In this document: positions 7,143 to 31,844 of the stretch, one piece after another
How the letters are laid out: every line of letters begins with the position of its first letter
How positions within the stretch are numbered: position 1 is the first letter of the stretch
The notes under the pieces: generated by a model
Database searches by the model: none
Told to the model about the DNA's origin: nothing
What the model saw: only the letters and a program-made list of their open reading frames with translations
Assembly (NCBI GenBank): GCA_035629175.1
Contig: DASPIL010000017.1
Span: 1-64,000 of the forward strand
Reading direction: 5' to 3'
Source of the DNA: Verrucomicrobiia bacterium
GTDB lineage: Bacteria; Verrucomicrobiota; Verrucomicrobiia; Limisphaerales; DASXHY01
DNA: 64,000 bases
Translations under genes and position numbers: made by a program

Positions 7143-7143
7143 T

Positions 7144-8682: not shown

Positions 8683-8896
8683 GGGACGCAGAGTAGACAC
8701 GATCGATGGCTGAGGAAACCGCCACTTCTGCAAAGCACATTGAAAAATCGGCCGCCTCACGCCTTTCCAGCCAATGGCCGCCGGAGTGCCGTGTTCTTTC
8801 GATGGGGGTCAAAACGGCAGTTCGGGCTCAGCCTTGTCAGAAGAAATCCCTGCATCCATGATTCCGGCAAGGAACTTGCATCCCAAGGAACCGAAC

Positions 8897-9379
8897 ATGA
8901 AAATCACGAATTGTATAAAAATTGGATTTGCTGCCTCCGCTTTGCTTGTTTTTGCCGGCTGCGTGAGCAACTCCGAACCCGGGCTGACATCGAACTCATT
9001 TGCCGTTCGGACCGCCACTCTGGGAATCGGTGGGAATAACTGCGGCGGATTTAACGGAACCAGCGGCTCCACCGCGTGTGTCGGGCCTTACACAGGATTC
9101 GCAATCATCACGAACTCGGCTTCCGGGACGATCTGGTTCACGGCGCCCGCGGGAGCTACCAACTGCGTTGTCACGGATTCCTCCGGTTTTGCGTCCCCCT
9201 ACGTTTCCGTCGTGAAAGCCGTCCGCCGCAGCAATCTCATGTCGTGGTGTGGAACCAACTCCGTGAGTTTCCCGGCCAATGCAGGGCAGCAATACAAGTT
9301 CACGATTTTTCTCAAGAGCACGCCGCCGCCTCCGACGAACGGGCAGCCGCTGGTTCTCGAAGTAGACTGGAATCCTTGA
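8897..9379 (+). CDS. Small exported lipoprotein of unknown function
   Basis: 160 residues from the ATG preceded by an AAGGA ribosome-binding site about 7 bp upstream; upstream in-frame ATGs lack this. The N-terminus is a lipoprotein signal (SALLVFAGC) with the acylated Cys at position 22. The mature part is short, rich in Ser, Thr, Gly and Asn, with several Cys (NNCGG, STACVG, TNCVV, SWCG) that could pair in the periplasm, and it ends in a Pro-rich stretch followed by VLEVDWNP. No family was recognised. It converges on the large FecR-TPR-barrel gene with only 6 bp between stops. Confidence 0.8.
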   Translation: MKITNCIKIGFAASALLVFAGCVSNSEPGLTSNSFAVRTATLGIGGNNCGGFNGTSGSTACVGPYTGFAIITNSASGTIWFTAPAGATNCVVTDSSGFASPYVSVVKAVRRSNLMSWCGTNSVSFPANAGQQYKFTIFLKSTPPPPTNGQPLVLEVDWNP

Positions 9380-9385
9380 AACCTC

Positions 9386-12300
9386 CTAGAAGCTGAATTG
9401 CAGCCGCGCGATGAATGTTCGCTCCCGGGGTAGATTGCCGGTAACCGTGAGCGAGTGCAGATGGTAGTTTTCGTCGGAGAGGTTGAGAACTCCCGCTGCA
9501 ATGCTGGCACGGCGCTGCCAGAAGCGATACCCCCCAAGCACGTTGTAATGCCAGAAGTCGTCGCCAGGCTGGCTGGAGAGATCCGCCGAGTTTTGCTGGC
9601 GAAACCAGACTGCTTCAAAGCTGGAGAAAAGTCCTGACGCGTGGTTGAAGTTCGCGTGAAGGACCAGCTGATGCATCAGGCTTTCCGCGTCTTCGTGAGG
9701 AACAAAACCGCCGCTGAACTCGCCAGGCAGCAGGTGCCGCGTGTCAGGGCGCGTGGCCGTCAGATCAGACTGCGTTAGCCGGTACACAAGCCCTGCCGAC
9801 CATTCGGTTCCGATCAGTTGATTGGCAGTAAACACCACTGCGCGTTCCCGAAAATCGATATTTTCACGCAGGCCGTATCCGTTCACCAGAACAAGCACAT
9901 CGTCTTCTAAACCAAAGGGGTCCACGTAGATGCTGCCACGCCAGCGATCGACCTCGGAATAGAGTAATTCGCCCCGAAGGCCAAGGTAGGTTCCAGTTTT
10001 GAATTTCTGTTCGAGCGACAGTGCAAACGTGTCGTTCTCTCCTCCGGAAGTCCCGCCGCTTAGGGATTCAGGAATCAGGCTCCGAAACGCCTGGTTCAGC
10101 CCCGCGACTTGGGTGGGTTCGATGCGATGACTCTGATCCAGGCTCCCGCCGGTGAGCGAGCGAGTATAGGCGCCGCGCACGGTCGTTCCCGGCAGAGGCG
10201 TCCAAAGGAACCCGGCCTTTGGCGAGAGCTGATCCTCGGAATCTTCGCTTCCCCAGAAGGGCGGTGTAAAAAGAAAGCGTGGATACTTGATCCAGTCATA
10301 CGTGAGACCCGCGGTCAGCTGAAGCGGCTCCGCAACCTGCCACGAATGATAGCCGTAAAGGCTGTAGCGATGGAATTCCGCACGCACATCCTGGTCGGCG
10401 AGTATCGCGCCGGGGGAAAAAACTGTACCCTCAATATCGAAGGCAAGTTGCTCGAGGCGAAAATCGGTGTGTTGAAACAGAGCGCCGAGCACCGTCTGAT
10501 GATCGCCCATTTGGAAAATTTGCTGAACCTCAGCGCTGTACAGTTCCTGGCTGTTAGCTGCCGTTCCCCCGGCCGGCAATGCATGGACGCCGGTGATGCC
10601 ACCGTCGACTACAGCAGTGACCAGTTGGGAACGATCCGGGAAGGCCACCGAATAATGGTCCACTTCACGTGTCAGGATCACCAATGTATGGTTCCCCGGA
10701 CTCCACTCATGGTGATACCCAAGTTCCAGCGTTGGCTGGTGTGTTTCCCGTGAACGGCCCCGAACCCGCACATCGGGATCGTACGCCTCTGCGAGGTCGC
10801 CCGCATCGGTTTCCGAAATTCTGACATGGAACAGTAGATCGTCCTGCGCGGTAATCCGTTGCTTCAAAGAGAGGCCAAGGGCACGGGTCTCCTGGTCGTT
10901 GTTGTAACGCTGTCCCGGATCGATTTGGTAGTCTCCTTCCAGGCTGTAGTTGAAGGTGTCAAACGTCCCGTACTGCGCAAAGCTTTGCATCCACGCCCCG
11001 CGGCTCAGGTATTCCGTGCTCGAAACCAGGCCGATGCCCGTGCGATTGAACAGGCGCGAGTATTCACTTTGCGACACGGCAGGCGAGAGAGGCCCGGCGT
11101 CCACCGGGGCAAGAAGAGATGCCAGCCTGTATTCGGCAGATGCCGGCGTCTCAAAGCGGAGATCCCAGTGGTTGGGATCTCTCATCGATTCAAAGCTGTT
11201 GGCGAGGAAGAAATGCGCGGAATAGTTGGCGTAATCGTAGGCAACGGCGCGGTACGCTTCCCGCATTGCGACTTCCCCCATGCCCGCGTCTTCATAAATC
11301 CGGGCCAGGTTCGCACTGCGGACTGCGTGATCCTGCCGCAATAACAACTCCGAGCGAACGATGCTGCGGTTGTCGTTACGTTCCTGTGAACGTTCCAGTT
11401 CCCGAATCGCTTCGTTGATGCGGTTGTTGCGATGATGCACCAGCGCGGAATACAGATGCGGCGTGGGGTCGTTAGGATCCAATCCCGCGGCGAGTTGAAG
11501 CTCTCGTTCTGCGTGCGGAAAATCACCGATGGCTTCGTGAGCCTTGCCGAGATAGCTGCGCAATTCCGCGCGCTGCGGCTCCAGCGCCGCCGCGACCATC
11601 AGGTCTTCGCGGCCGCCAGTGACATCGCCGCGGCGAATCCGGGAAAGGCCGCGCCCGAGCCATGCATTGGCGAGCGCTGAATCAACAGCAATCGCGCGAT
11701 CAAACGACGTCAATGCCTCATCAAAGCGGTTGTCGGCGGCCTCGAGGAACCCCTGGAGCGCGAGGGCCTGGGCGTTTCGCGGCGAAAGTTCAAGGCCTTT
11801 TGTCAGCGCTTCGCGAGCCTCTGCCAGGCGTCCAAAGCTGAACTCCAGTTCGGCGAGCCGGGTCCAGGCAAATCCCAGACCGGGCGACACTACAGCGGCC
11901 TGGCGCGCCAGCCTGCGGGCGCGCTCGAGGGACTCGCCGCGAAGGCCGCCCGATTGCGCGTGATAACTCGAGGCCAGAAGCTCCGAGGCGGTTTCAGGAT
12001 TGGAAATTCCAGAATACGAATCCCGCCGAACGGAGTTGATCAACAGCCGCAGGGCAGCAGCGGATCGTTGTTCCGGAACTGCATCGGGCGCCACCGCGGC
12101 CAGCAGCGATTGCGCCTGCTCCACTTGTCCAACGGACAGCAGCAACGCCGCATGAAAAACCCGCCCGGCATTTGAGGCAGGCGCTCCATTGGTTGGATGC
12201 CGCGCGAGCGCATTGAGCAGGTCGCCTTGTTGATACGCCGCAAGCGAATCGGCAAGGGCTGCGCGTTCTGCATCCGCAAACGCCAGTTCAGCAGGATCAA

Positions 12301-12916
12301 TGACGGCCGGATAATAAAAGGCCCACTGAAGCACGTGGTTCACGATGAAGCCGGCCGTTGGAGCAGGCGCGCGTCCTGGTTCAGCAACCGCCTGCTGCCC
12401 GTTGGTCAGGATCAGCGTCGCTTGTTCATTTCCAAACGTCACTGTTCCATCGATCACAGAAAGCGTCGTGCGGCCCAGACCATTCACCGCCATCACAAAC
12501 TCAGTCCCTTCGATGCCCGCGCTGGCGCCCCGGGTGACAACGCGAATACGTCCCGGTTTGTCGCGGTGAAAGAAGGAAAGCACACCGCGGAAAAGTTCGA
12601 GGCCGGACTGCCCATCGCGCACCGGTAGGATTTCGAGCTCGGTGGACGCTCCGAATGGAATGACGCTTTCTCCACTCCAGCGCAGCGCCACCCTGCTGTT
12701 GGCGCTCGTCCTCAAGCGGTCGCCCGCCGAGAGAAGCTGGTTTGTCGCGCCCGGTGTCCACGTCGAAGTCCCCGCAGGCAGGACCTGCACGGTGCCCTGT
12801 AATTCTACAATCCGGATCTGCTCCGCTTGGGAACTTTGTCCCCATCCGCACAAGGTGCTGGCTTCAAAGAGCAATACAACGGCGACAATGCAGGTGATCT
12901 GGTGTGACAGTTTCAC
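9386..12916 (-). CDS. FecR-TPR-outer-membrane beta-barrel fusion protein
   Basis: 1176 residues in one uninterrupted frame. A signal peptide occupies about 1-27. A FecR-type domain follows at about 35-190 (LQGTVQVLPAG, LSAGDRLRTSANSRVALRW, GIEGTEFVMAV). Tetratricopeptide repeats run from about 225 to 600 (e.g. AWTRLAELEFSFGRLAEA, LALQGFLEAADNRFDEAL, PHLYSALVHHRNNRINEA). A beta-barrel like the C-terminal part of TonB-dependent receptors covers about 615-1176 (LSPKAGFLWTPLPGTTVRG) and ends in FSF, the usual outer-membrane insertion signal. No plug domain or TonB box is evident. TPR-plus-barrel order recalls polysaccharide exporters such as BcsC and PgaA. Function is unknown; the architecture is directly visible. 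Confidence 0.85.
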   Translation of the reverse strand: MKLSHQITCIVAVVLLFEASTLCGWGQSSQAEQIRIVELQGTVQVLPAGTSTWTPGATNQLLSAGDRLRTSANSRVALRWSGESVIPFGASTELEILPVRDGQSGLELFRGVLSFFHRDKPGRIRVVTRGASAGIEGTEFVMAVNGLGRTTLSVIDGTVTFGNEQATLILTNGQQAVAEPGRAPAPTAGFIVNHVLQWAFYYPAVIDPAELAFADAERAALADSLAAYQQGDLLNALARHPTNGAPASNAGRVFHAALLLSVGQVEQAQSLLAAVAPDAVPEQRSAAALRLLINSVRRDSYSGISNPETASELLASSYHAQSGGLRGESLERARRLARQAAVVSPGLGFAWTRLAELEFSFGRLAEAREALTKGLELSPRNAQALALQGFLEAADNRFDEALTSFDRAIAVDSALANAWLGRGLSRIRRGDVTGGREDLMVAAALEPQRAELRSYLGKAHEAIGDFPHAERELQLAAGLDPNDPTPHLYSALVHHRNNRINEAIRELERSQERNDNRSIVRSELLLRQDHAVRSANLARIYEDAGMGEVAMREAYRAVAYDYANYSAHFFLANSFESMRDPNHWDLRFETPASAEYRLASLLAPVDAGPLSPAVSQSEYSRLFNRTGIGLVSSTEYLSRGAWMQSFAQYGTFDTFNYSLEGDYQIDPGQRYNNDQETRALGLSLKQRITAQDDLLFHVRISETDAGDLAEAYDPDVRVRGRSRETHQPTLELGYHHEWSPGNHTLVILTREVDHYSVAFPDRSQLVTAVVDGGITGVHALPAGGTAANSQELYSAEVQQIFQMGDHQTVLGALFQHTDFRLEQLAFDIEGTVFSPGAILADQDVRAEFHRYSLYGYHSWQVAEPLQLTAGLTYDWIKYPRFLFTPPFWGSEDSEDQLSPKAGFLWTPLPGTTVRGAYTRSLTGGSLDQSHRIEPTQVAGLNQAFRSLIPESLSGGTSGGENDTFALSLEQKFKTGTYLGLRGELLYSEVDRWRGSIYVDPFGLEDDVLVLVNGYGLRENIDFRERAVVFTANQLIGTEWSAGLVYRLTQSDLTATRPDTRHLLPGEFSGGFVPHEDAESLMHQLVLHANFNHASGLFSSFEAVWFRQQNSADLSSQPGDDFWHYNVLGGYRFWQRRASIAAGVLNLSDENYHLHSLTVTGNLPRERTFIARLQFSF

Positions 12917-12946
12917 TTGGTGATTTCATTAACGTTTCCTGAAGGC

Positions 12947-12960
12947 GCCAGCCTGCTGGC
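12947..12960. promoter_or_regulatory. Short palindrome upstream of the FecR-TPR-barrel gene
   Basis: GCCAGC-CT-GCTGGC, a perfect 6-bp inverted repeat with a 2-bp centre, located 30 bp before the start codon of the FecR-TPR-barrel gene. It could be an operator or a leader hairpin. No partner regulator is known. Confidence 0.35.
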
Positions 12961-13007
12961 CCATCCTCCTCGTCCGAGGCGGCGATACGAAATCACAAAC
13001 GGAACCG

Positions 13008-13023
13008 GTTTACAATCGTAAAC
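13008..13023. promoter_or_regulatory. Inverted repeat GTTTAC-N4-GTAAAC, candidate operator
   Basis: A perfect 6-bp inverted repeat with a 4-bp spacer, about 92 bp upstream of the FecR-TPR-barrel start and just beyond the 3' end of the AmpG-like permease. It partly overlaps a second palindrome (AACCGGTT at 13003-13010). The position fits a regulator site for the barrel gene; this is inference from symmetry only. Confidence 0.4.
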
Positions 13024-13051
13024 GTCCTGCGGAGAAGGTTTGCGAATCCAG

Positions 13052-14353
13052 TCAACGGGTATCTTGTTTCCGGCCGAACCCTTCCTGAACCGGGATCAAT
13101 GCCGTCACTATAAACCCGGGCAGTGTCGCGATGAGCACCCACATGAAAAAACGGGGGTAGCCCAACAGGTCCTGCAGCCATCCGCTCCACATGCCTGGCA
13201 GCATCAAGCCAAGCGCCATGAACCCCGTGCAGATGGCGTAATGCGCAGTCTGATGCTGGCCGCGAGCAATATGGATCATGTAGAGCATGTACGCCGTGAA
13301 GCCGAAACCGTATCCGAATTGCTCGGCGGCGACGCACGCCGCGACCACGCCTGTGCTGGACGGCAGCGCGTATGCGAGATATACGAACAACGCGTTCGGA
13401 GCGTGCGTTGCAAATGCCATGGGCCAGAGACAGCGGCGCAACCCGAACCGTGAAACCACCCAGCCTCCCAACAGCCCGCCCGTCATGAGCGCGATGACGC
13501 CGCCCGTTCCATACACCATGCTGAATGCGCGGTTGCTCAAGCCCAGCCCGCCTGACTCGTTCGAATCAATCAGGAAGGCTTGCGCCATCGGCAGCAATTG
13601 TGCCTCGGCAAAGCGATACAAAAGAAGGAACGAGAGCAGGACACCTATTCGTCTCTTCCCGAAAAAACTGCGGAAGGTTTCAACGAAATCCCGCCAGAAA
13701 CGCGTTGATCCTTCCCACGATCCCTCCCGATCGGCCGCCGACCGGGGAAGGATTGACCTGTGGTAAATGCCGAGGGCCGCAAAGAGGATTGCCAGACCTG
13801 CAAACGCAATCATCCACGCCGTTCGGACATTCCCGAGTTCAGCCTGCAGCGCGGCCACCAGGAAAATAAATGGGCCCTTCATTGAAAGGGTGGCGAGCCG
13901 GTATACGGCGTTGCGAACGCCCACAAAGAAGGATTGTTCCTGCTCCGACAGCGCCAGGATGTAAAATCCATCAGCTGCGATGTCGTGCGTGGCGGAGCTG
14001 AATGCCAGGAGAAAAAAGCAAACAATCGAGCCTGGCACAAACCACGATGCCGGCAGGAGGCACGCGAGCGCTCCCGCGGCCACGCTTAACAGGATCTGCG
14101 TTCTCCAAATCCAGAGGCGACGCGTCCGCAGGAGGTCCACGAGGGGGCTCCAAAGGGGTTTCAGAACCCAGGGCAGATAAAAAAGTCCCGTGTAAAAAGC
14201 CACTTTCGTGTTCGACACGCCGAGCGCCTTGTAGAGCAGGAGCGCCACCGTCGTGACCAGCGCATTGGGCAAACCTTCCGCAAGATAGAGCGTCGGAATC
14301 CACGCCCAGGGACGCCGATGCTGGCTAGGGTTTGTTTGGCTGGGCTGAAACAC
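13052..14353 (-). CDS. AmpG-like MFS permease
   Basis: 433 residues, about 12 membrane segments. The opening [20 protein letters not shown] followed by [18 protein letters not shown] is the pattern of AmpG / PAT-family permeases, which import muropeptides (GlcNAc-anhydro-MurNAc peptides) or export acetyl-CoA. [14 protein letters not shown] in the third or fourth helix is also characteristic. Muropeptide recycling is a possible role, but related MFS members in this phylum have unknown substrates and no other recycling gene is nearby. It is divergent from hisF across 119 bp. Confidence 0.8.
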
Positions 14354-14472
14354 GACGCGTGTTTATCAGCAAATCTCCGCGCTCAGCAAGGGCGCAGGTG
14401 TGTCCGGCGTTCCCAACGGCTGCCGTGCGCAAAGTGATTGCACTGCGCTGCGGCTGCCGCTCAAATGCTGTG

Positions 14473-15246
14473 GTGATTGCAAAACGTGTCATACCATGCC
14501 TCGACGTCCACGATGGAAAAGTCACCCGTGGCGTGCAGTTTGGCAAAGCGGAATCGGGTGAACTGCGCAACGTCGGAGATCCTGTGGAACTCGCAATCCG
14601 CTACAATGAGCAGGGCGCCGATGAAATGGTTTTCTTTGACATCACCGCCAGCGCCCATGGCCGCAAGACGATGGTGGATGTCATCGAACGCGCCGCCGCC
14701 GAGTGTTTCATGCCGCTGACGGTCGGCGGCGGAATTAAATCGGTCGACGACATGTACGCGATGCTTCGCGCTGGCGCTGACAAGATCAGCATCAATTCCT
14801 CTGCACTCGTGGATCCGGAGTTGATCCGGCGCGGAGCGGAAAAGTTTGGCAGCCAGTGCATCGTGGTGTCGATCGATGCAAAGAGGATCGCGCCTGACCA
14901 GTGGCGGGTGTTCTCGCACGGCGGCCGAAAGGATACGGGACTGGAAGCCGTCGCATGGGCTCAGAATGCAGTGAAGCTCGGAGCTGGCGAAATCGTGTTG
15001 AATTCCATCGACGCTGATGGAACCAAGGCGGGGTTCGACCTGGTGATCACGCGCCGCGTCAGTGAAGCAGTCGGGGTTCCCGTGGTGGCGAGCGGGGGAG
15101 CTGGCAAACTGGAGCACATGGCGGAGGTGCTGCTCGAAGGCAAAGCAGACGCGGTCCTGGCCGCGAGCATCTTCCATTTTGGAACCTATACGGTCGCGGA
15201 CGTAAAGCGGTTCCTTGCCGAAAAGAAAATCCCGGTTCGCTTCTGA
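14473..15246 (+). CDS. hisF: Imidazole glycerol phosphate synthase, cyclase subunit
   Basis: 257 residues from a GTG start ([12 protein letters not shown]), the length and N-terminus expected for HisF; a second GTG directly upstream is equally possible. The TIM barrel carries both catalytic aspartates, Asp11 in [10 protein letters not shown] and the one in VVSIDAKR near 130, plus phosphate-binding loops ([22 protein letters not shown]). It closes the imidazole ring of IGP in histidine biosynthesis using ammonia from HisH. No other his gene is present here, so hisF is detached from the rest of the pathway. It is followed 23 bp later by a DUF486 gene and a terminator. Confidence 0.97.
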
Positions 15247-15744: not shown

Positions 15745-17451
15745 ATGCCATCGAATCACTCTAAAGCCATCTTTGACGGGTTCGTGCCGCAGATTGGGGT
15801 CACGCCGCTTGCCGAACTGCTCTCCAACCTGCTCGGGGAGATAGCCGCATTGATGGAGGTGGAACGCGTCGGGTATTCGCGGATGGAACGCGATGGGTCG
15901 TCGATTCAGCAGGAGTTTCAATATTACCTTTCCCGCCGGCATTGTGACGCAGGTTCCCTGCTGCGGCTGTACGCCCGGGATTATCCCGGGTATTTCGCGG
16001 CATTGAACGCGCGTTCGAATGTCATCGTTTCGCACGATGTGATGTCGGACCCGCGGCTTGCAGAATTCCAGCAAACCTATTTCAAGCCACTGGGAATCAC
16101 GTCCATGCTCGACGTCCCGGTTCACCGCGCCGGCCAGTTATACGGCGTCATCTGTCACGAGCATGTGGGTCCCCCGCGTCATTGGACCGACATGGAAGTG
16201 GAAGCGGCGCGCAGCTTTGCGCATCTCGTGGCGCTCGCCATTGAGACCGACCAGCGGCAGAAGATGGAAGCCGCCGTGCGGGATCGCGAGGCGCGGTATC
16301 GCGCCGCCATTGAACACACCCCCGCCGCGATCGTGGTGCTGAACGCAGCAACGGGAAAGTTTGTTGAAACCAATGACAACGCCGTCCGGCTGTTTGGCCT
16401 TTCGCGCGAGGAATTGCTGGACACAGGGCCCGCCGAACTCAGCCCGCCGAGGCAGGCCGATGGACGCCCAAGCAAGGATGTCGCACGCGAGAACATCGGG
16501 GCCGCAGTTAATGGCGAGACGCGGATTTTCGAATGGTTGCACCGTGACAGGTCGGGCAGGGACATCCCGTGCGAAATTCGCATCGCCCGGATGCCAGCCG
16601 AGGACGAGACCCTCGTGATCGCCGCGATCATGGACATCACCGAGCGCAAACGCGCCGAAGCCGAATTGCGAATGGCGCTGGAACAGGAACGCGAACTCAG
16701 CGAGCTGAAGACAAACTTTGTTAACGTGGTTTCACACGAGTTTCGGACTCCGCTCGGGGTCATTGTTTCGTCGGCTGAAATCCTTGAGCATTACTTTGAG
16801 CGGCTGCCGGGCGAGCAGCGCGCCGGCCATTTGCAGGACATCGGATTCGCAGCGCAGCAGATGGCGGGTTTGATGGATGAGGTGCTTCTGCTCGGCAGGG
16901 TCGATTCCGGACGCATGCAGTGCAATCCCGAACCGCTCGACATGGCGGGCTTTTGCCGACGGCTCGTCGACGAGCAGCTCTCTGCGACGCATCGCAAATG
17001 TCCCATCCAATTGACCGTTGAAGGATGCGCGAGTCAGGCGTCTGCTGATGAAGCCCTCCTGCGCCATGTCTTCAACAATCTACTGTCCAATGCGGTGAAA
17101 TATTCGGCCGCTGGCAGTGTTGTGACGTTTGTGGTCAGGCGCGAGGAGCGGGACGCGGTGTTCGAAATTCAGGATCACGGGATCGGAATTCCCGCATCTG
17201 ATCAGAAACGCCTGTTCGAGGCGTTTCATCGCGGGCAGAACGTTGGCGACATCGCGGGGACGGGCCTGGGCCTGGTGATTGCGAAAAGCTGTGTCGACCT
17301 GCACAGCGGCACGATTGCGATCTCCAGCGAACCCGGCAAAGGCACGCGCGTCACGGTTCGCCTGCCGCTCTTTCGCACGCGCCGCAGTGACACTCGCAAT
17401 GGCGCGACAAAGACGAAACGACAGGCTGCCGCTTCCATGGATGCCATATGA
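15745..17451 (+). CDS. GAF-PAS hybrid sensor histidine kinase
   Basis: 568 residues, no membrane segment, so a cytoplasmic sensor. A GAF domain covers about 20-170 (GITSMLDVPVHRAGQLYGVICHEH) and a PAS domain about 180-300 (RYRAAIEHTPAAIVVLN; ITERKRAEAELR). The HisKA H-box VVSHEFRTPLG places the phosphorylated His at about 331. The ATPase part has an N-box (FNNLLSNAVKYS, near 443), G1 (DHGIGIPASD) and G2 (GTGLGLVIAKS). The stop overlaps the response regulator start by ATGA, so the two form a coupled two-component pair. The signal is unknown. Confidence 0.95.
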   Translation: MPSNHSKAIFDGFVPQIGVTPLAELLSNLLGEIAALMEVERVGYSRMERDGSSIQQEFQYYLSRRHCDAGSLLRLYARDYPGYFAALNARSNVIVSHDVMSDPRLAEFQQTYFKPLGITSMLDVPVHRAGQLYGVICHEHVGPPRHWTDMEVEAARSFAHLVALAIETDQRQKMEAAVRDREARYRAAIEHTPAAIVVLNAATGKFVETNDNAVRLFGLSREELLDTGPAELSPPRQADGRPSKDVARENIGAAVNGETRIFEWLHRDRSGRDIPCEIRIARMPAEDETLVIAAIMDITERKRAEAELRMALEQERELSELKTNFVNVVSHEFRTPLGVIVSSAEILEHYFERLPGEQRAGHLQDIGFAAQQMAGLMDEVLLLGRVDSGRMQCNPEPLDMAGFCRRLVDEQLSATHRKCPIQLTVEGCASQASADEALLRHVFNNLLSNAVKYSAAGSVVTFVVRREERDAVFEIQDHGIGIPASDQKRLFEAFHRGQNVGDIAGTGLGLVIAKSCVDLHSGTIAISSEPGKGTRVTVRLPLFRTRRSDTRNGATKTKRQAAASMDAI

Positions 17452-18095
17452 ACAGGATACTTGTCATCGAAGATCAGCCGCAGATGCGGAAGAATATCGT
17501 GACCATTCTGACCATGGAGAACTTCACGGTGTTGAGCGCGGAAAATGGCCGGCTGGGACTGGAGCTCGCGCGACGCGAGACGCCCGACCTGATCATCTGC
17601 GACGTCATGATGCCCGACCTGGACGGCTACGGAGTTCTCAAGGCATTGCGGGAGGAATCGGCGACCGCTGACATCCCCTTCATTTTTCTGACGGCGAAGA
17701 GCGAAAAGCTGGATATACGTGCCGGGATGAATTTCGGAGCGGACGATTACCTCACCAAGCCCGTAACACGCGATGATTTGCTCGCGGCGATCGCTGCGAG
17801 GCTCGAGCGGAGGCGATCGGTGGACGCGGCGCACAGCGGTCGCGGGTTCCAGCCCGATTTTTCCTCACCTGCACCGTTGAAGCGCCTCGGTTTGACCGAA
17901 CGGGAATCAGAAGTGTTGTTATGGGTATCGCAGGGAAAGAGCAACGCTGAGATTGGAATCATTCTTGGCATGGCCGAGAAGACGGTAAAGAAGCACATGG
18001 GCAACATCTTCGAGAAGCTTGGCCTGGAAGGGCGCAACGCGGCGACCGTGCGCGCTCTGGAGGTGCTCAATTCACCTGCCCGCGTTCGGAACTAG
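17448..18095 (+). CDS. Response regulator, REC plus LuxR-type HTH
   Basis: 215 residues. The receiver domain (1-120) has the acidic pair in VIEDQ, phosphoacceptor Asp52 in IICDVMMPDLDGYG, and Lys in LTKPVTRDD. The C-terminal LuxR/NarL-type helix-turn-helix at about 145-205 reads LTERESEVLLWVSQGKSNAEI then AEKTVKKHMGNIFEKLG. It is translationally coupled to the kinase directly upstream, its evident partner. Its 3' end overlaps the convergent SLC13-family gene by 24 bp, which leaves no room for a separate terminator. Confidence 0.95.
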   Translation: MNRILVIEDQPQMRKNIVTILTMENFTVLSAENGRLGLELARRETPDLIICDVMMPDLDGYGVLKALREESATADIPFIFLTAKSEKLDIRAGMNFGADDYLTKPVTRDDLLAAIAARLERRRSVDAAHSGRGFQPDFSSPAPLKRLGLTERESEVLLWVSQGKSNAEIGIILGMAEKTVKKHMGNIFEKLGLEGRNAATVRALEVLNSPARVRN

Positions 18096-24224: not shown

Positions 24225-25433
24225 TCAGAACTGGTAAATGAAGTTCAGGGCCAGCGACACGGCGTTCCGGTCGGTTGGATCAACCTTGCCTCCAAACGGA
24301 CGGTCACCCGACAGTGCAGTATCCCAGCGCACTTCGGCGCGGCTGATGACATTCTTCCAAAGGGCGTAGTCCAGAGTTCCGGTGAGTGACAGGAGCTCGT
24401 TCTTTTCGCCGTCCGAGGTCATGTAACCGAAGGTTCCGTTGCTGCCCCACGCATAATCAGCACGGGTATTCAGTTTCATCTTCTCGGTGATCTGCCAGCT
24501 CAGGTACAAGGCCGCTGCTTCGGCATAGGATTCTTCAAACAGATATCCATGCGTGTAATCATATGCGAAACCGAGACTGAGGCCCGAGACCGGCAATGGA
24601 ATGGCGCCGCCGACATAAAAGTTCCCCTGGCTCCATCGTCCGTCCGGGTTCGGAATGCCCGAGACATTGTTGAATCCATTGGTTCCGCCCGCTGGCACGG
24701 CGTCGCCATAGGTGTAGCCCGCCGACAATGTGGCGCCACTCATCGCACCAAAGCTTCCGGGCGCCGTGAACGTCAGGATACCGAGGTAGGCTTTGCGCGA
24801 TTCAATGGAGGACTTCGCGTCGGCCTGATTGTTGAAGCCGGCGATGTTGCCGACGCCCACCATGGCGCTGAACATGTCGTTGAACTTGTAACTCGCCGAG
24901 ATGCCGGTGTGCGCGGAGGATTCAATATAGAACCCGTAAGAACGGCTCCAGTTCGGGTTCTTGTAAGTATCGAACGCTTCGTAACCGTTGTAGGTTCCGA
25001 ACTGGCCGACCTTGAAATCAATGCCGTTGCCGACGGGCGCGCGCAGCAGGATGACCGCTTCGTTCATCGCGAGGTCGCCCCCGGAACCAATGATCGATCG
25101 GGTCCCGCGCTTTGTCGCCCAGGGGCCGAGCAGCATCTGCACATTGTAGCCCGCGGACCATTCACCTTCATCGAGCGGCTTGGTGAGCGTAAGGCTGACA
25201 ACATTGAGATTGAAGCCATCCTGCGTATCGGCTCCGTCATAGACGCGGCCAGGCATGTTTGCGTTGCCAGTTCCCACCTTCCAAACGGCGGAGGTATCGA
25301 TGTAACCGCTCAGGGTGGTGGAGGATACGGCGGTCAAAAGCGAGGGTGTTTCGAGCTCTGCGGCCTGCGCAACTGCTGGGAGGGTGATCAGACCGGCGCC
25401 TAAGAGGACCTGCGTCCATTTACTTATGTTCAT
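24225..25433 (-). CDS. Outer-membrane beta-barrel porin (BBP2/DUF1597-like)
   Basis: 402 residues from the ATG at a clear signal peptide (MNISKWTQVLLGAGLITL, cleavage after AQAAE). The mature protein is made of alternating amphipathic strands (LSGYIDTSAVWKVG, GISASYKFNDMFSAMVGVG, GTLDYALWKNVISRAEVRWD) and ends LNFIYQF, a standard barrel C-terminus with terminal Phe. The pattern fits the porin-like family often seen near transport operons in Verrucomicrobia and Planctomycetes. It diverges from urtABCDE and has a sigma-54-like promoter of its own, which suggests it lets a nitrogen compound through the outer membrane; that link is inference. Confidence 0.85.
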   Translation of the reverse strand: MNISKWTQVLLGAGLITLPAVAQAAELETPSLLTAVSSTTLSGYIDTSAVWKVGTGNANMPGRVYDGADTQDGFNLNVVSLTLTKPLDEGEWSAGYNVQMLLGPWATKRGTRSIIGSGGDLAMNEAVILLRAPVGNGIDFKVGQFGTYNGYEAFDTYKNPNWSRSYGFYIESSAHTGISASYKFNDMFSAMVGVGNIAGFNNQADAKSSIESRKAYLGILTFTAPGSFGAMSGATLSAGYTYGDAVPAGGTNGFNNVSGIPNPDGRWSQGNFYVGGAIPLPVSGLSLGFAYDYTHGYLFEESYAEAAALYLSWQITEKMKLNTRADYAWGSNGTFGYMTSDGEKNELLSLTGTLDYALWKNVISRAEVRWDTALSGDRPFGGKVDPTDRNAVSLALNFIYQF

Positions 25434-25505
25434 AGTTTGTTTGTTATAGGTTTTGGTTTTGAGACGGGCGCCCATTTGCGCACCGCGTTCGGTTCACGCC
25501 CCGCC

Positions 25506-25522
25506 AAGCAGAATCGATGCCT
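25506..25522 (-). promoter_or_regulatory. Sigma-54-like -24/-12 element facing the porin gene
   Basis: Read on the minus strand the sequence is AGGCATCGATTCTGCTT: GG and GC are separated by exactly 10 bp, with GGCA and TGCT matching the TGGCAC/TTGCW consensus. It lies about 73 bp upstream of the porin start. Several consensus positions differ, so it is weaker than the element facing urtA. Confidence 0.4.
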
Positions 25523-25750
25523 CCCCCAATTCGTGTTGCATAACGAAGGTCCAATCAGAATCGCCGCGATGGAAAATGTTCTGCCTCGCACGCACACGAA
25601 TTTCAAAACGGTGAAGGCGTGAATTGCCCGCGCTGCGCCGTGTCGCCGTGGGCATTTCGCAAACTCGATCGGCCGCCAATCTGAATTCGACGCGTGACTG
25701 TTGTGGCGAAAATCCCGGGTCCGACGGAACACCGTTCCCCGCGCGCTTCA

Positions 25751-25770
25751 GTGCTGCACGGAATCAGCAC
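25751..25770. promoter_or_regulatory. Inverted repeat GTGCTG-N8-CAGCAC, candidate enhancer site
   Basis: Perfect 6-bp arms with an 8-bp spacer, about 105 bp upstream of the urtA -24 element, a usual distance for a sigma-54 activator site. The half-site orientation differs from the classical NtrC consensus, so the protein that binds is unknown. Confidence 0.45.
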
Positions 25771-25810
25771 CCGCTGTTGAGTAATGCGCGCACTGTGCAA
25801 ATCGATACTC

Positions 25811-25828
25811 ACGATTCAGATGAATCGT
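25811..25828. promoter_or_regulatory. Perfect inverted repeat ACGATTCA-GA-TGAATCGT
   Basis: 8-bp arms with a 2-bp centre, about 46 bp upstream of the urtA -24 box. This is the most symmetric sequence in the divergent region and a likely operator for a dimeric regulator. Confidence 0.5.
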
Positions 25829-25873
25829 TTTCGTCACAGGCGCATTCCTTGTGGAAATCATGAAATTGGTCCG

Positions 25874-25889
25874 TGGCATATCGGGTGCT
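25874..25889 (+). promoter_or_regulatory. Sigma-54-like -24/-12 promoter of the urt operon
   Basis: TGGCATATCGGGTGCT matches the sigma-54 consensus TGGCAC-N5-TTGCW at all but two defined positions and keeps the invariant GG-N10-GC spacing. The predicted transcript start is near 25900, giving a leader of about 100 nt before urtA. Nitrogen control of urea transport through RpoN is well known in other bacteria, which supports the assignment. Confidence 0.6.
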
Positions 25890-25908
25890 AAAGGGGAATC
25901 GCTTGCGC

Positions 25909-25929
25909 TGCCATCATTGGGTGATGGCA
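25909..25929 (+). promoter_or_regulatory. Hairpin in the urtA leader
   Basis: TGCCATCA / TGATGGCA form a perfect 8-bp stem with a TTGGG loop, starting about 10 nt after the predicted sigma-54 transcript start. A second, smaller stem (GATGC-CGTC-GCATC, 25946-25959) follows. They may stabilise the transcript or affect translation of urtA. Confidence 0.45.
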
Positions 25930-26002
25930 ATTCGCTGACGCGAATGATGCCGTCGCATCGGTGCAGCTCAGAACTAAACCCGAAGAAATCGCACTCAATC
26001 CA

Positions 26003-27244
26003 ATGAAGCTCTCACTGCTGAAAAAATCCCTGCTTGCCGCTATTGCCGCCGGCGTTTCGCTTGGTGTCCAGGCGGCTGACGTCGTCAAAGTCGGTGTGCT
26101 GCATTCCCTCAGCGGCACCATGGCCATCAGCGAAACCTCGCTGAAGGACGTGTTGCTGTTTTCGTTCGACGAGATCAATAAAAGCGGCGGTGTCAAAGTC
26201 GCCGGGAAGAATTACCTGATCGAACCCGTGGTCGTGGATCCAGCCTCCAACTGGCCGCTCTTTGCAGAGAAGGCGGAGCAGTTGCTCGTCAAGGACAAGG
26301 TTTCGGTCGTGTTCGGCTGCTGGACCTCGGTCAGCCGCAAATCGGTCCTGCCGGTGTTCGAGCGCAACAACGGCCTGCTCTTCTACCCCGTGCAGTACGA
26401 GGGCGAGGAGTTGTCGAAGAATATTTTCTACACGGCCGAAGCGGTGAATCAACAGGCGATCCCCGCGGTCGATTACATGCTCGCGGAAGGAAAGAAGAAG
26501 TTTTACCTGCTTGGCTCCGACTACGTTTATCCCCGCACCACCAACAAGATCCTGAAGCAGTATCTCAAGATGAAGGGGATTCCTGATTCGGACATCATTG
26601 AGATCTACACTCCCTTCGGCCACACGGACTACCAGACGATCGTGGCGGAAATCAAAAAGTTTGCTGCCTCCGGAAACGCCTGCGTCATCAGCACTCTCAA
26701 CGGCGACACGAATGTTCCGTATTTTAAAGAGTACGCCAACGCGGGGCTGACATCGGAAAATTGCCCTGTGGTTTCCTTCTCGATTTCCGAGGATGAATTC
26801 CGCGGCCTGCCCGCGAAGGAGCTCGTCGGCCAGCTGGGTTGCTGGACTTATTTCATGTCCTTGAAGAATCCCGAGAACGACGCGTTCGTGAAGAGCTTCC
26901 AGGCCTGGCTGCAGGATCCGAAAGTCACCGGCGTTGATTACCAGGTTACGGGCGTCGATCCGAAAGGCCGCGTCACATGCAGCCCCATGAACCTGTCCCG
27001 CATCGGCGTGAACCTGTGGAAGCAGGCTGTGGAAAAGGCGGGCACCTTTGAAGTGGATGCCGTGCGCAAGGCGCTGGTCGGCCAGAAGTTCAAAGGTCCT
27101 GCGGGAGAAGTGACGATGCAGGAGAACCATCACCTCGTGAACAATGTTTACATCGGCGAGACGATGGCGAGCGGCCAGTTCAAGGTCATCAAGACCTATA
27201 CTGGCGTGGCCGCCGAGCCTTTCAGCGAAAAATTTCTGAAATAG
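26003..27244 (+). CDS. urtA: Urea ABC transporter, substrate-binding protein
   Basis: 413 residues from the ATG at the signal peptide ([20 protein letters not shown], cleavage after VQAAD); an upstream in-frame ATG would add 14 polar residues. [67 protein letters not shown] and the region GCWTYFMSL are hallmarks of UrtA/AmiC-type urea- or short-amide-binding proteins. It binds urea in the periplasm and delivers it to UrtBC. It is the first gene of urtABCDE and is separated from urtB by a strong hairpin. Confidence 0.96.
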
Positions 27245-27328: not shown

Positions 27329-29056
27329 GTGAATCGCATTTATTGTGTCCTGGCGCTTTGTTGCCTCGTGCTGGCCGCCGATGCGGCGGATTCGACTGCA
27401 CCCACGAATCGTTTTCGATCAGTTCTCACCCAGGCCGCCATCAGCCAGGATGCCGCCGAGCAGATCGCGCTGATTCGGGAGTTGGTCGGCGCCGATGACG
27501 GCCTGATTTCCCGTGCCCTGGCCGCATGGCGCGTCGGCGAGCTCTTTCTTCATCACCCCACAAACGGATCTCCTGCGCCTATCCTATTGGATTCAAAACT
27601 CGATGCCGAAGGCCGCGCGCGGGGGATCGATGTCAGCACAGGTGAATTCATTGTTGATGCCGCCGGCAAACCGGTCCTGTTTCTGCAAGGTGATCTCACC
27701 GCAATCGACAACAGCTCGCGCCTGCGCCGCGCCATCAAGACCACGCTCGATCTGTACGCGGTCAACAATCCGCAGCCAAAAATGCGAAGAGACGCTGTGA
27801 TCAAGCTCGGCCAGGAACAGAACGCAGAGTATCTCCCGCACTTTCAAAATCGGATCGCGATTGAGAACGACGCGGAGGTGAGAAAGCTTTTGAAGGAAGC
27901 GATCGCACTCACTCTGATGGCGTCGACCGATACGAACGTGCAGATCGCCGCTGTGACCCAGTTGGGCGAAATGCGATCGATCAACGGGCTCGAATTCCTC
28001 AAGAACCTGCAAAAGACTTTCGCAGGGAAGTCCTCGGGCCATCCCGAAACGCTGGTGCACGCGGTTCGCCTCTCCATTGCGCAAATTGAAAATTACCTCT
28101 GGTGGGGAAACCTGTTCGGCACGGCGTTCCGCGGGTTTAGCCTTGCGGCAGTTTTGCTGGTCGCGGCGCTGGGCCTTGCGATCACCTTTGGGCTCATGGG
28201 CGTGATCAACATGGCGCATGGCGAAGTCATGGCGATTGGCGCCTACACCGCCTACTTCGTTCAGGGAATCTTTGGGACAGGTCTGCTGTTTTCGCTGTTT
28301 GGGAAGCAGATGTCGGTCGGCGGTTTTGGGCTCACTGGCTACGCTTTTGATTCGTACTTCATCGTGGCTCTGCTCGCATCGTTTGTGACGGCCGCACTCG
28401 CCGGGCTCGCACTCGAACGCGGCGTCATCCGATTCCTTTACAAGCGTCCCCTGGAATCATTGCTCGCCACGTGGGGCGTCAGCCTGGTGCTGCAGCAGAT
28501 TCTCCGGCACACGTTCGGCGCCGCGAACGTTCAGGTGAACTCGCCATCGTGGCTGACCGGAAGTTATGTCCTGCACGACGTCCTGTTCGCCTTCAACAGG
28601 CTCTTTGTGATCGGCTTTGCAGTATTCATCGTGTTCTGCACCTACCTGCTGCTGACACGAACATCGCTTGGGTTGCAGATCCGCGCCGTGATGCAGAATC
28701 GCACCATGGCCTCCTGCATGGGAGTCCGCACAGATCGCGTGAACATGATGACCTTCATGCTGGGTTCAGGTCTCGCAGGCATGGCGGGTGCGTGCATGTC
28801 GCAGATCGCGAATGTGGGTCCCAGCCTCGGACAGAGCTATATCATTGATTGCTTCATGATTGTGGTTCTCGGTGGCGTTGGAAACATCGTGGGCACCGTG
28901 TCGGCATCGCTTGGCGTCGGGGTTACCGACCAGATTCTGCAGCCCTGGCTCGGCGCGGTCCTCGGGAAGATCACCGTGCTGGCTGCGATCATCCTGTTCC
29001 TGCAATGGAGGCCGAACGGGATTTTCGTCACCCGCAGCCGCAGCCTTGATGGATGA
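27329..29056 (+). CDS. urtB: Urea ABC transporter, permease subunit UrtB
   Basis: 575 residues from a GTG start followed by a signal-like hydrophobic segment (CVLALCCLVLAADAA). The long N-terminal region (to about 250) is extracytoplasmic and contains HEAT-like helices (MRRDAVIKLGQEQNAEYLPHF), as usual for UrtB. The permease part begins near 255 with GLMGVINMAHGEVMAIGAY, the conserved LivH-type motif, and continues through GVSLVLQQILRHTFG and IRAVMQNRTMASCMGVRTDRVN, the cytoplasmic ATPase contact. With UrtC it forms the membrane channel for urea. Confidence 0.96.
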   Translation: MNRIYCVLALCCLVLAADAADSTAPTNRFRSVLTQAAISQDAAEQIALIRELVGADDGLISRALAAWRVGELFLHHPTNGSPAPILLDSKLDAEGRARGIDVSTGEFIVDAAGKPVLFLQGDLTAIDNSSRLRRAIKTTLDLYAVNNPQPKMRRDAVIKLGQEQNAEYLPHFQNRIAIENDAEVRKLLKEAIALTLMASTDTNVQIAAVTQLGEMRSINGLEFLKNLQKTFAGKSSGHPETLVHAVRLSIAQIENYLWWGNLFGTAFRGFSLAAVLLVAALGLAITFGLMGVINMAHGEVMAIGAYTAYFVQGIFGTGLLFSLFGKQMSVGGFGLTGYAFDSYFIVALLASFVTAALAGLALERGVIRFLYKRPLESLLATWGVSLVLQQILRHTFGAANVQVNSPSWLTGSYVLHDVLFAFNRLFVIGFAVFIVFCTYLLLTRTSLGLQIRAVMQNRTMASCMGVRTDRVNMMTFMLGSGLAGMAGACMSQIANVGPSLGQSYIIDCFMIVVLGGVGNIVGTVSASLGVGVTDQILQPWLGAVLGKITVLAAIILFLQWRPNGIFVTRSRSLDG

Positions 29057-29079: not shown

Positions 29080-30306
29080 ATGCTCTCCACCTGTTTCAAA
29101 CTACGCGAGCTCTGGATCATTGGCATCCTGTCGTTCGTCGCCCTGGTTCTCCTGCCTTGTCTGAATGCATTTGTGCCCGCGACGAGCGCGCTGCACGTGA
29201 GTTCGTTTACACTCAGCCTTTACGGAAAGTACCTGACCTATGCTGTATTGGCGCTCGGCGTGAACCTGCTGTGGGGTTACACGGGAATCCTGAGCCTTGG
29301 GCAATGCCTTTTCTTCGCCCTGGGCGGCTATGCGCTCGGCATGTATCTCATGCTCAAGATCGGCAACCTCGGCCAATACAAGGCCGCCATTCCCGATTTC
29401 ATGGTGTTCCTCGAATTCGCAACCAAGTATCCCGAATCCGGCGGATTGCCTCCGCATTGGATTCCCTTCAAACAGTTCTGGTTTGCAGCGGCAATGGTGA
29501 TCGTTGTGCCCGCAACAGTGGCGTACATCTTTGGCTTCCTGGCATTTCGATCGCGAATCAAGGGAGTGTATTTTTCGATCCTAAGCCAGGCCCTCACCTA
29601 CGCGGCCTGCCTGATGTTCTTTCGCAATGACTTCACCTTTGGTGGCAACAACGGCCTGACCGACTTCAAGTTCATCCTCGGTTACGACGTCAACGCGCCC
29701 GGAACGAAGCGCGCGTTGTACATGTGTTCGGCTGCGCTGTTGCTCGGAGTTTATCTCTTCTGCCGATGGCTGACTTCGACAAAGTTCGGATTGATTCAGC
29801 GTGCCATCCGCGATTCGGAGAACCGCGTTCTTTTCTCGGGATACGCGACTGCAAACTTCAAGCTCTTCGTCTTTGTCGCGGCAGCCGTGATAGCGGGGCT
29901 CGGGGGGGCTTTGTTCGTGCCGCAGGTTGGCATCATCAACCCAAGCGAAATGTCTCCGGAAAAATCCCTGGAGGCCGTTGTGTGGGTGGCCGTGGGCGGC
30001 CGCGGCAGCATGCTCGGCCCCATCATCGGCGCGGTTGGCATCAACGCCTTGAAGAGCTACGCCACCCATGCGTTTGCCGAGCAATGGCCGTACATCCTCG
30101 GCTTGCTCTTCATCTTCGTGACATTGTTCATGCCGAAGGGAATCATTGGATTGCCCGCACAGTTCCGTGAACTGAAGCGCCGTTATTGGAATCGCGGCCG
30201 AACCGAACCCGATCGCGGAGGAGGAGCGCAGCGCCTCCCGGCAGGCACTGAACCCGGCCAGGATTCTCAAAGCCTGCTGCCAGCAAAACATCCCATCCAG
30301 CCATGA
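29080..30306 (+). CDS. urtC: Urea ABC transporter, permease subunit UrtC
   Basis: 408 residues, about 10 membrane helices. [25 protein letters not shown] is the LivM/UrtC motif; [18 protein letters not shown] and [14 protein letters not shown] follow, and [19 protein letters not shown] is the EAA-like loop that contacts the ATPase subunits. The last 30 residues are polar and Arg/Gly/Pro-rich. Its stop overlaps the urtD start by ATGA. Confidence 0.96.
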
Positions 30307-31067
30307 AAGCAGTCTCCAAGGATTTTGTTTTATCGCTGGAAGACGTCAGCAAAACCTTCGATGGCTTCAAGGCGATCTCGAAGTTGAATTTCTACATGGA
30401 TGAGGGCGAGCTGCGGGTGATCATCGGGCCGAACGGGGCAGGGAAGAGCACGATGCTCGACCTGATTACGGGCCGCACAAAACCGGATCGCGGCAAGATC
30501 GAGTTCGGGCGCGACACTGACCTGACGCGATTGAACGAATATCAGATCAACCGCCTTGGCATCGGGCGCAAGTTCCAGACGCCCTCGGTTTACGTGGACC
30601 ACACGGTGCTCGAGAACATCTGGCTTTCACTCGAAGGGACCCGCACCGTCTGGAGCACGCTATTCGCGCGAATCACAGCCGCGCAGCGGGAACGGATTCA
30701 GAATGTGCTGGAGACCGTGGGGCTTTCTGAAAAGGCCAGTGTCAAAGCGGGCCTCTTAAGCCACGGGCAAAAGCAATGGCTCGAAATTGGCATGTTGCTC
30801 GCGCAGAACCCCAGGCTCCTGTTGGTGGATGAACCGGCCGCCGGGATGACCGATGAGGAGACACACAAGACCGGCGAGTTGCTGATGAGCCTGGAGGGGA
30901 AGCACAGCATCGTGGTGATTGAGCATGACATGACGTTTGTTCGCCAGATTGCCCGCAAGGTCACGGTGCTGCACCAGGGAAGCGTGTTGTGCGAGGGAAG
31001 CGTTGACGAGGTTCAGAACAACGAACGAGTGATCGAGGTTTATCTCGGAAGAAAAAAGAAGAACTGA
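30303..31067 (+). CDS. urtD: Urea ABC transporter, ATP-binding subunit UrtD
   Basis: 254 residues. Walker A is GPNGAGKST, the Q-loop lies in [10 protein letters not shown], the signature is [13 protein letters not shown] (the variant typical of UrtD and distinct from LSGGQ), Walker B is [11 protein letters not shown] and the switch His is in IVVIEHDM. Translation is coupled to urtC through ATGA. It forms the ATPase heterodimer with UrtE. Confidence 0.96.
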
Positions 31068-31076
31068 ACAGGCTTC

Positions 31077-31844
31077 ATGCTGACGATTTCCAACATTCAC
31101 GTTTCCTACGATGGTTCCCGAATTCTTCGCGACGTGAGCCTCACTGTGGCGCCGGGACAGGTCGTGTGCCTGATGGGACGGAACGGCGTGGGGAAGACCA
31201 CCACGCTCAAGGCCATTGTCGGAACAGTGAAATGCGACTCGGGGTCCGTGAGGATCGGCGGCACCGAGCTGGCGCGCCTGAAGCCAGACCAGCGCGCGCG
31301 GCATGGGCTCGGATACGTGCCGCAGGGGCGCGATATATTCCCGAACATGACTGTCTGGGAGAATCTGCGGATTGGCGCGGTGGCGCAGGGAAAGAAACTG
31401 AACGGCGAACTGGATCGCGTGTATCAGTTGTTTCCCGTGCTGAAGGACATGCTGCAGCGAAAGGGCGGTGTGCTCAGCGGAGGCCAGCAGCAGCAGCTGG
31501 CAATCGGCCGCGCGCTGCTGACCAATCCCAAAGTGCTCCTGCTCGACGAACCGACCGAAGGAATCCAGCCGAACATCATCGACCAGATTGGCGACACGAT
31601 CAAAGTCCTGCGCGACGAAGGCTTGCATGGCGGAGAACGCCGGGATTATTCCCAGGAAGTCACCAACGCCATCAAGGCTCTTCGGAAGGAAGGCCAGATT
31701 GGCATCCTGCTGGTGGAACAGTACCTCGATTTCTGCCTCGATGTCGGCGATCACTTTTTCATCATGGATCGTGGCGCGGTTGTGGCGCAGGGTCCGATCC
31801 GGGACTTGAACGATGACATGGTTCGCGCACACCTCACCGTTTGA
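31077..31844 (+). CDS. urtE: Urea ABC transporter, ATP-binding subunit UrtE, with internal insertion
   Basis: 255 residues, slightly longer than the roughly 230 usual for UrtE. Walker A is GRNGVGKTT, the Q-loop is in YVPQGRDIFP, the signature is LSGGQQQQLAIGRAL, and Walker B is VLLLDEPTEGIQPNII. Between Walker B and the switch region (ILLVEQYLDF) there is an extra segment at about 180-202 (LHGGERRDYSQEVT, then NAIKALRKEG), which looks like a repeat of the preceding DTIKVLRDEG. The frame is intact and all nucleotide-binding motifs are kept, so the subunit should work. Its stop overlaps the next gene's likely TTG start. Confidence 0.94.
   Translation: MLTISNIHVSYDGSRILRDVSLTVAPGQVVCLMGRNGVGKTTTLKAIVGTVKCDSGSVRIGGTELARLKPDQRARHGLGYVPQGRDIFPNMTVWENLRIGAVAQGKKLNGELDRVYQLFPVLKDMLQRKGGVLSGGQQQQLAIGRALLTNPKVLLLDEPTEGIQPNIIDQIGDTIKVLRDEGLHGGERRDYSQEVTNAIKALRKEGQIGILLVEQYLDFCLDVGDHFFIMDRGAVVAQGPIRDLNDDMVRAHLTV

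Follow-up and report, generated by a model that had tools for sequence, protein, structure and literature searches.

In Pseudomonas putida the urtABCD genes, which encode a urea ABC transporter, belong to an NtrC/sigma-54 system and are NtrC-induced under nitrogen shortage, according to the available sections of PMC7801951. Porins of the outer membrane have been linked with this kind of uptake: the available sections of PMC10781810 and PMC11064514 associate FmdC with urea and amide transport, the porin being encoded or named together with urea/amide ABC uptake in fmdCABDEF of Methylophilus methylotrophus and as fmdC of comammox Nitrospira. Sigma-54 use within the Verrucomicrobiota is described for Opitutia, whose predicted sigma-54 regulons have the promoter consensus TGGCAC-N5-7-TTGCT (PMC12316311, available text); urt, UrtA and porin are absent from the main text of that paper, and no nitrogen-uptake activator sites were seen in its available sections. 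Available excerpts give a further promoter consensus (PMC3162934) and list four ntrC-type genes for M. fumariolicum SolV (PMC5623727).

The locus presented here shares with the Pseudomonas loci a sigma-54-like site just before urtA, and with FmdC the pairing of a porin with urea uptake, a likeness of gene association. Unlike P. putida, the order to which it belongs has TGAAT-N3-ATTCA palindromes in fixed helical phase and a porin within the operon; unlike the FmdC systems, this locus has a divergent porin with its own candidate promoter. It is part of a stretch of 64,000 nucleotides, called the window, from contig C17 of a genome of 5.4 Mb and 108 contigs. An intergenic region of 569 bases (25434-26002) separates the BBP2 porin gene, with its ATG at 25433 on the minus strand, from urtA, with its ATG at 26003 on the plus strand. 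The features are as follows.

24225-25433, minus strand: 402-residue outer-membrane beta-barrel porin of the BBP2 family (PF07642), Pfam E=5e-35
25506-25522, minus strand: candidate porin promoter of the -24/-12 type, AGGCATCGATTCTGCTT (GAGGCATCGATTCTGCT), 90 bp before the ATG, 9.8 bits, predicted start near 25496
25751-25770, no strand: inverted repeat GTGCTG-N8-CAGCAC, chance-level, not conserved
25811-25828, no strand: inverted repeat ACGATTCA-GA-TGAATCGT (ACGATTCAGATGAATCGT), overlapping the 25821-25833 palindrome, itself not conserved
25821-25833, plus strand: putative activator-type palindrome TGAATCGTTTTCG, matching TGAAT-N3-ATTCA at 8/10 positions, its start 52 bp ahead of the 17-mer of the urtA promoter site, centre about -73
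25874-25889, plus strand: probable -24/-12 (sigma-54-type) promoter of urtABCDE, TGGCATATCGGGTGCT, 11.8 bits, predicted start near 25900
26003-27244, plus strand: urtA, urea ABC transporter binding protein, TIGR03407 511.1 bits (cut-off 492.75)
27329-29056, plus strand: urtB, TIGR03409 370 bits (cut-off 250.3)
29080-30306, plus strand: urtC, TIGR03408 410.6 bits (cut-off 296.2)
30303-31067, plus strand: urtD, TIGR03411 379 bits (cut-off 304.1)
31077-31844, plus strand: urtE, TIGR03410 319.2 bits (cut-off 285.8), match in two stretches
Outside the window, L358 (G000:C91:103000-122000), 5800-14673: urease genes and an NtrB/NtrC-like pair (L008)

All five subunits of the UrtABCDE urea ABC transporter thus score above their family cut-offs, and urease alpha is encoded in the same genome (G000). 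UrtE (31077-31844), with its two-part family match, has an apparent insertion around residues 180-200. The gene of an SBF-like transporter (PF13593, 31841-32890) begins within the last bases of urtE and may share the transcript of the urea operon. At 15745-18095, some 8 kb from urtA, a sensor kinase-like frame is followed by a response-regulator-like one, both named from sequence alone. The UrtA matches among named records (L017-L031, 62-84% identical) are Verrucomicrobiota without exception; L017, L018 and L020 are MAG records titled Akkermansia muciniphila whose urt operons resemble those of the window's environmental lineage, and these names look wrong.

The earlier note on this DNA had read a GG-N10-GC box on the urtA side as an RpoN-dependent promoter, and the comparison supports that reading. 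The site at 25874-25889 has GG and GC ten bases apart in a TGGCAY/TGCW context, and rpoN, whose absence was to have told against the proposal, is present in the genome (PF04552, 199.5 bits) and in 292 of the 320 genomes of the order. All site scores come from a hand-written -24/-12 matrix. When the 569 intergenic bases are shuffled 1000 times and both strands are scored, 4.6% of the shuffles equal the urtA-side site; it is comparison across genomes that decides. In three further genomes (G105, G019 and G016) an orthologue of the window porin is also divergent from urtA, and GTGGCATA-N5-TGCTAA is invariant in all four, although their intergenic DNA barely aligns otherwise. The start of the 17-mer lies 130 (G000), 142 (G105), 151 (G019) and 101 bp (G016) before the urtA ATG. 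With urtA recognised at E<=1e-100 in 88 of the 320 genomes, upstream DNA from 80 places plus G000, G019 and G016 gave 83 regions, and in 65 of these a site scoring 8 bits or more lies upstream of urtA. The pattern TGGCAY-N6-TGCTNA occurs at 15 places in the window's own genome, against 6 for a reversed control, and behind several of them are glnA, P-II with an amtB-like gene, flagellar (flg) and pilin-like genes (judged by sequence), which fits the expected sigma-54 regulon. We regard 25874-25889 as very probably a sigma-54 promoter for urtA. In other taxa such a site is carried by 58 of 76 regions upstream of urtA, where 8.3 are expected, so that sigma-54-type sites at urt are widespread and nothing new in themselves; both Verrucomicrobiota and Proteobacteria commonly have sigma-54-like sites in front of urtA.

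Two perfect inverted repeats between the promoters had been proposed as shared enhancers that might be conserved among relatives. Both are located as described, but that role is not supported for them as written, and neither is conserved. GTGCTG-N8-CAGCAC was rejected as an enhancer: it is not conserved in the divergent relatives, and inverted repeats with six-base arms and gaps of 0-20 bases (8 observed, 3.4 expected) occur at least once in 91% of shuffles, so that this repeat carries no meaning by itself. Repeats with eight-base arms number 2, against 0.23 expected, and 17% of shuffles contain one. The other proposed enhancer resolves into a differently symmetric site, TGAAT-N3-ATTCA, since it consists of the 25821-25833 palindrome overlapping a neighbouring half-site; this repeat, ACGATTCAGATGAATCGT, overlaps the RTGAAW-N3-WTTCAY-class site upstream of the urtA promoter.

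This class of palindrome recurs across the order at fixed distances from the promoter. Inverted repeats were sought in the 220 bp above the site in the 65 regions that reach 8 bits. This set includes weak sites lacking GG (e.g. L215 and L229) and others a long way upstream of the gene; the 18 regions dropped from the 83 include L233-L235, with near-sites such as TTGGCACGCCGCGAGGT. TGAA-N5-TTCA is present in 24 of the 65 (0.3 expected), and 45 have a match of at least 8/10 to TGAAT-N3-ATTCA (shuffle mean 6.1, maximum 12); the palindrome was discovered and counted in these same regions, with position phase and the non-urt modules described below as the more independent checks. Palindrome starts cluster at -62/-63, -52, -40/-41 and -30 from the 17-mer, frequently in pairs 22 bp apart, which spaces the RTGAAW-N3-WTTCAY copies in steps of 11 bp over the stretch from 30 to 63 bp upstream of the -24 element. 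In-phase copies occur in 40 of the 65 promoters (shuffle mean 0.4, maximum 2) and span 18 of 28 families; the 11-bp register has R=0.87, or 0.83 after thinning to family-unique positions. The window's own palindrome, which arises by chance in 0.7% of shuffles of its region, sits at -52, a position that belongs to the helically phased set found throughout the order. An 8/10 palindrome occupies the same -52 position in G019, and two of the four divergent genomes, G105 and G016, have no in-phase copy. Outside the order the palindrome stands above the site in only 3 of 58 urt sites; two of the three, from a member of the Puniceicoccaceae and a related MAG (L029 and L030), have 9/10 copies before the urtA site at -79 (both) and -58 (L029). 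A search of the open-access literature, by subject rather than by motif, found no report of a phased TGAAT-N3-ATTCA element.

The element is not confined to urt. A strict module pattern, defined as the palindrome, 22-52 bp and TGGYA-N7-TGC, matched 102 places in 89 of the 320 genomes against 14 for the reversed pattern, an imperfect control because the reversed pattern is not palindromic; 17 of the 102 are urt promoters, and the window's own genome has no match. Among 47 places inspected, 5 were urt and 42 were not. Nitrogen-uptake genes lie behind 8 of these 42, all 8 in phase, and the remaining non-urt places are inside long reading frames or before unrelated or unknown genes. The module precedes a BBP2 porin plus an ammonium transporter gene (amtB) in G193; NMT1_2 genes in G206, G138, G059, G036, G073 and G074, which we take to be NrtA/NasS-like from the Pfam NMT1_2 match; and second UrtA-type operons in G305 and in G074, where the second urtA follows the NMT1_2 gene. 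In the G193 locus (L338, G193:C5:14900-18700, 3-2542) TGAATCTAATTCA lies 61 bp before a sigma-54-like site, and porin and amtB form one unit. Since the module is also found before amtB, NrtA/NasS-like genes and second urtA operons, the combination of palindrome and sigma-54 site looks like the mark of a nitrogen-source regulon. In the window's own genome, the glnA and P-II promoters have no in-phase palindromes, and the regions upstream of the urease and ntrBC-like genes have no sigma-54 plus palindrome module.

The association of porin and urea transporter, also put forward in the earlier note, proves to be common in the order. In 69 of the 83 regions the urt operon opens with a BBP2 porin gene, which stands directly before urtA on the same strand; these operon-type porins are another subgroup, 22-34% identical to the window porin. 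The other 14 regions comprise 4 with the window-type divergent porin, 1 with another divergent porin and 9 with none, some of them on short contigs. By gene order, the window is a rare porin-swapped variant of the urt locus.

Joint control of the porin and the urea transporter is plausible. The second sigma-54-like box is present on the porin side as had been reported. It is weaker than its urtA-side counterpart, yet plausible as a promoter, and we put the chance that it is real at about one half. According to the competing account, to which we would give only slightly less than an even chance, sigma-54 dependence is limited to urtA, the porin-side GG-N10-GC is a coincidence and the porin is transcribed from an ordinary promoter. 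Its score is not rare, being equalled in 14.7% of the 1000 two-strand shuffles, and of the three other divergent genomes one has a matching site in the same place: G019 has a degraded version (TTTGCATTCTTCCTGCT at -106, with a 9/10 palindrome 41 bp above), and G016 has no comparable sigma-54 site upstream of its divergent porin. Coincidence accounts less readily for G105, where TAGGCATCGCTCGTGCT has an equal score (9.9 bits) exactly at -90 from the porin ATG although the intergenic DNA is otherwise unalignable, or for the porins of the window type (the window's and its homologues), 13 of 31 of which are preceded by a site scoring 8 bits or more, where 3.7 are expected. The A in place of T before GG is also frequent in Pseudomonas urtA sites.

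The NtrC-type enhancer is TGCACC-N5-GGTGCA, from which the window palindrome is different as a motif. Classical NtrC might nevertheless activate the operon through sites of its own, leaving the TGAAT palindrome to a secondary regulator. NtrC induction of the P. putida urt genes, as reported in the available part of PMC7801951, favours this, as do three of the ten full-length sigma-54 activator-domain matches in the genome, which reach 510.7 (L003), 501 (L002) and 488 bits (L008) on TIGR01818 (ntrC); L002 and L008 are NtrC-like, and L008, paired with a sensor-kinase-like frame, lies about 5 kb from the urease alpha gene, the pair following the urease genes at about 3-6 kb. The genome's own P-II promoter carries TGCACCAACGATTGGTTCA, which is close to the NtrC consensus; at this locus (L165, G000:C40) the P-II gene and an amtB-like frame lie behind TGGCACCACGGGTGCTAA, with TGCACCAACGATTGGTTCA upstream. 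However, none of the nine activators scanned of the ten reaches the curated ntrC cut-off of 558.6. NtrC-type (GCAC/GTGC-type) dyads are missing from the 30 top-ranked in the 65 urt upstream regions, where TGAA-N5-TTCA dominates, and none was seen by eye in the window region. We consider activation by classical NtrC unlikely. An activator gene located next to urt was rejected: queries with the genome's own ten activators, nine in the right reading frame and L009 in a wrong one, gave no match in urt upstream regions at E 1e-10. When five candidates per genome were scored, 185 of 320 genomes had an L008-type match at E<=1e-120; in genomes with perfect or strong palindromes, such as G132, G131, G021, G220 and G244, the scored candidates gave none, or only matches in the E 1e-120s, taken as paralogues. 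The half-sites TGAAT/ATTCA and the pairs 22 bp apart also recall the ARG boxes of E. coli, which have similar half-sites and a tandem spacing of about 21 bp, with ArgR as a conceivable helper. The half-site gap is 3 here and 4 in ARG boxes, and an Arg_repressor family match was found in 0 of 58 genomes searched, where a control matched in 9 of 14; ArgR is a most improbable binder.

The reading that we prefer is of a sigma-54 promoter with a phased activator site. Sigma-54 RNA polymerase would bind the conserved site at 25874-25889, and transcription of urtABCDE would start near 25900. Some 52 bp upstream of that site, an activator would bind the RTGAAW-N3-WTTCAY-class palindrome, always on the same side of the helix. 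The position class is conserved across the order; what we infer is that a protein binds there, namely an enhancer-binding protein with nitrogen shortage as its signal. The divergent porin is probably a passage for urea across the outer membrane, and the candidate sigma-54 site at 25506-25522 would be its own. A different BBP2 porin opens the urt operon in most relatives and appears to have been replaced by the divergent one in four genomes, where, with a second sigma-54 promoter, porin and urt genes would again be expressed together.

In our view the region is probably control DNA of a Verrucomicrobiota nitrogen-source regulon, made up of a sigma-54 urt promoter, a phased activator palindrome and the porin's candidate site. 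A bolder proposal, which we hold tentatively and rate somewhat below an even chance, is that the order uses an undescribed sigma-54 activator that binds tandem RTGAAW-N3-WTTCAY sites unusually near the promoter, their centres lying between about -51 and -83 and strictly in step with the helix, and so switches on a nitrogen-scavenging regulon for urea, nitrate and ammonium that includes outer-membrane porins. Sigma-54 activators are taught as distant proteins that act via DNA loops; here, in an order whose regulation has hardly been studied, a promoter-proximal, helix-face-locked site is found in 18 of 28 families. The palindrome offers a concrete sequence with which the activator may be pulled out and the nitrogen regulon of abundant uncultivated Verrucomicrobiota defined, and the structure of the operon ties outer-membrane porins to nitrogen uptake.
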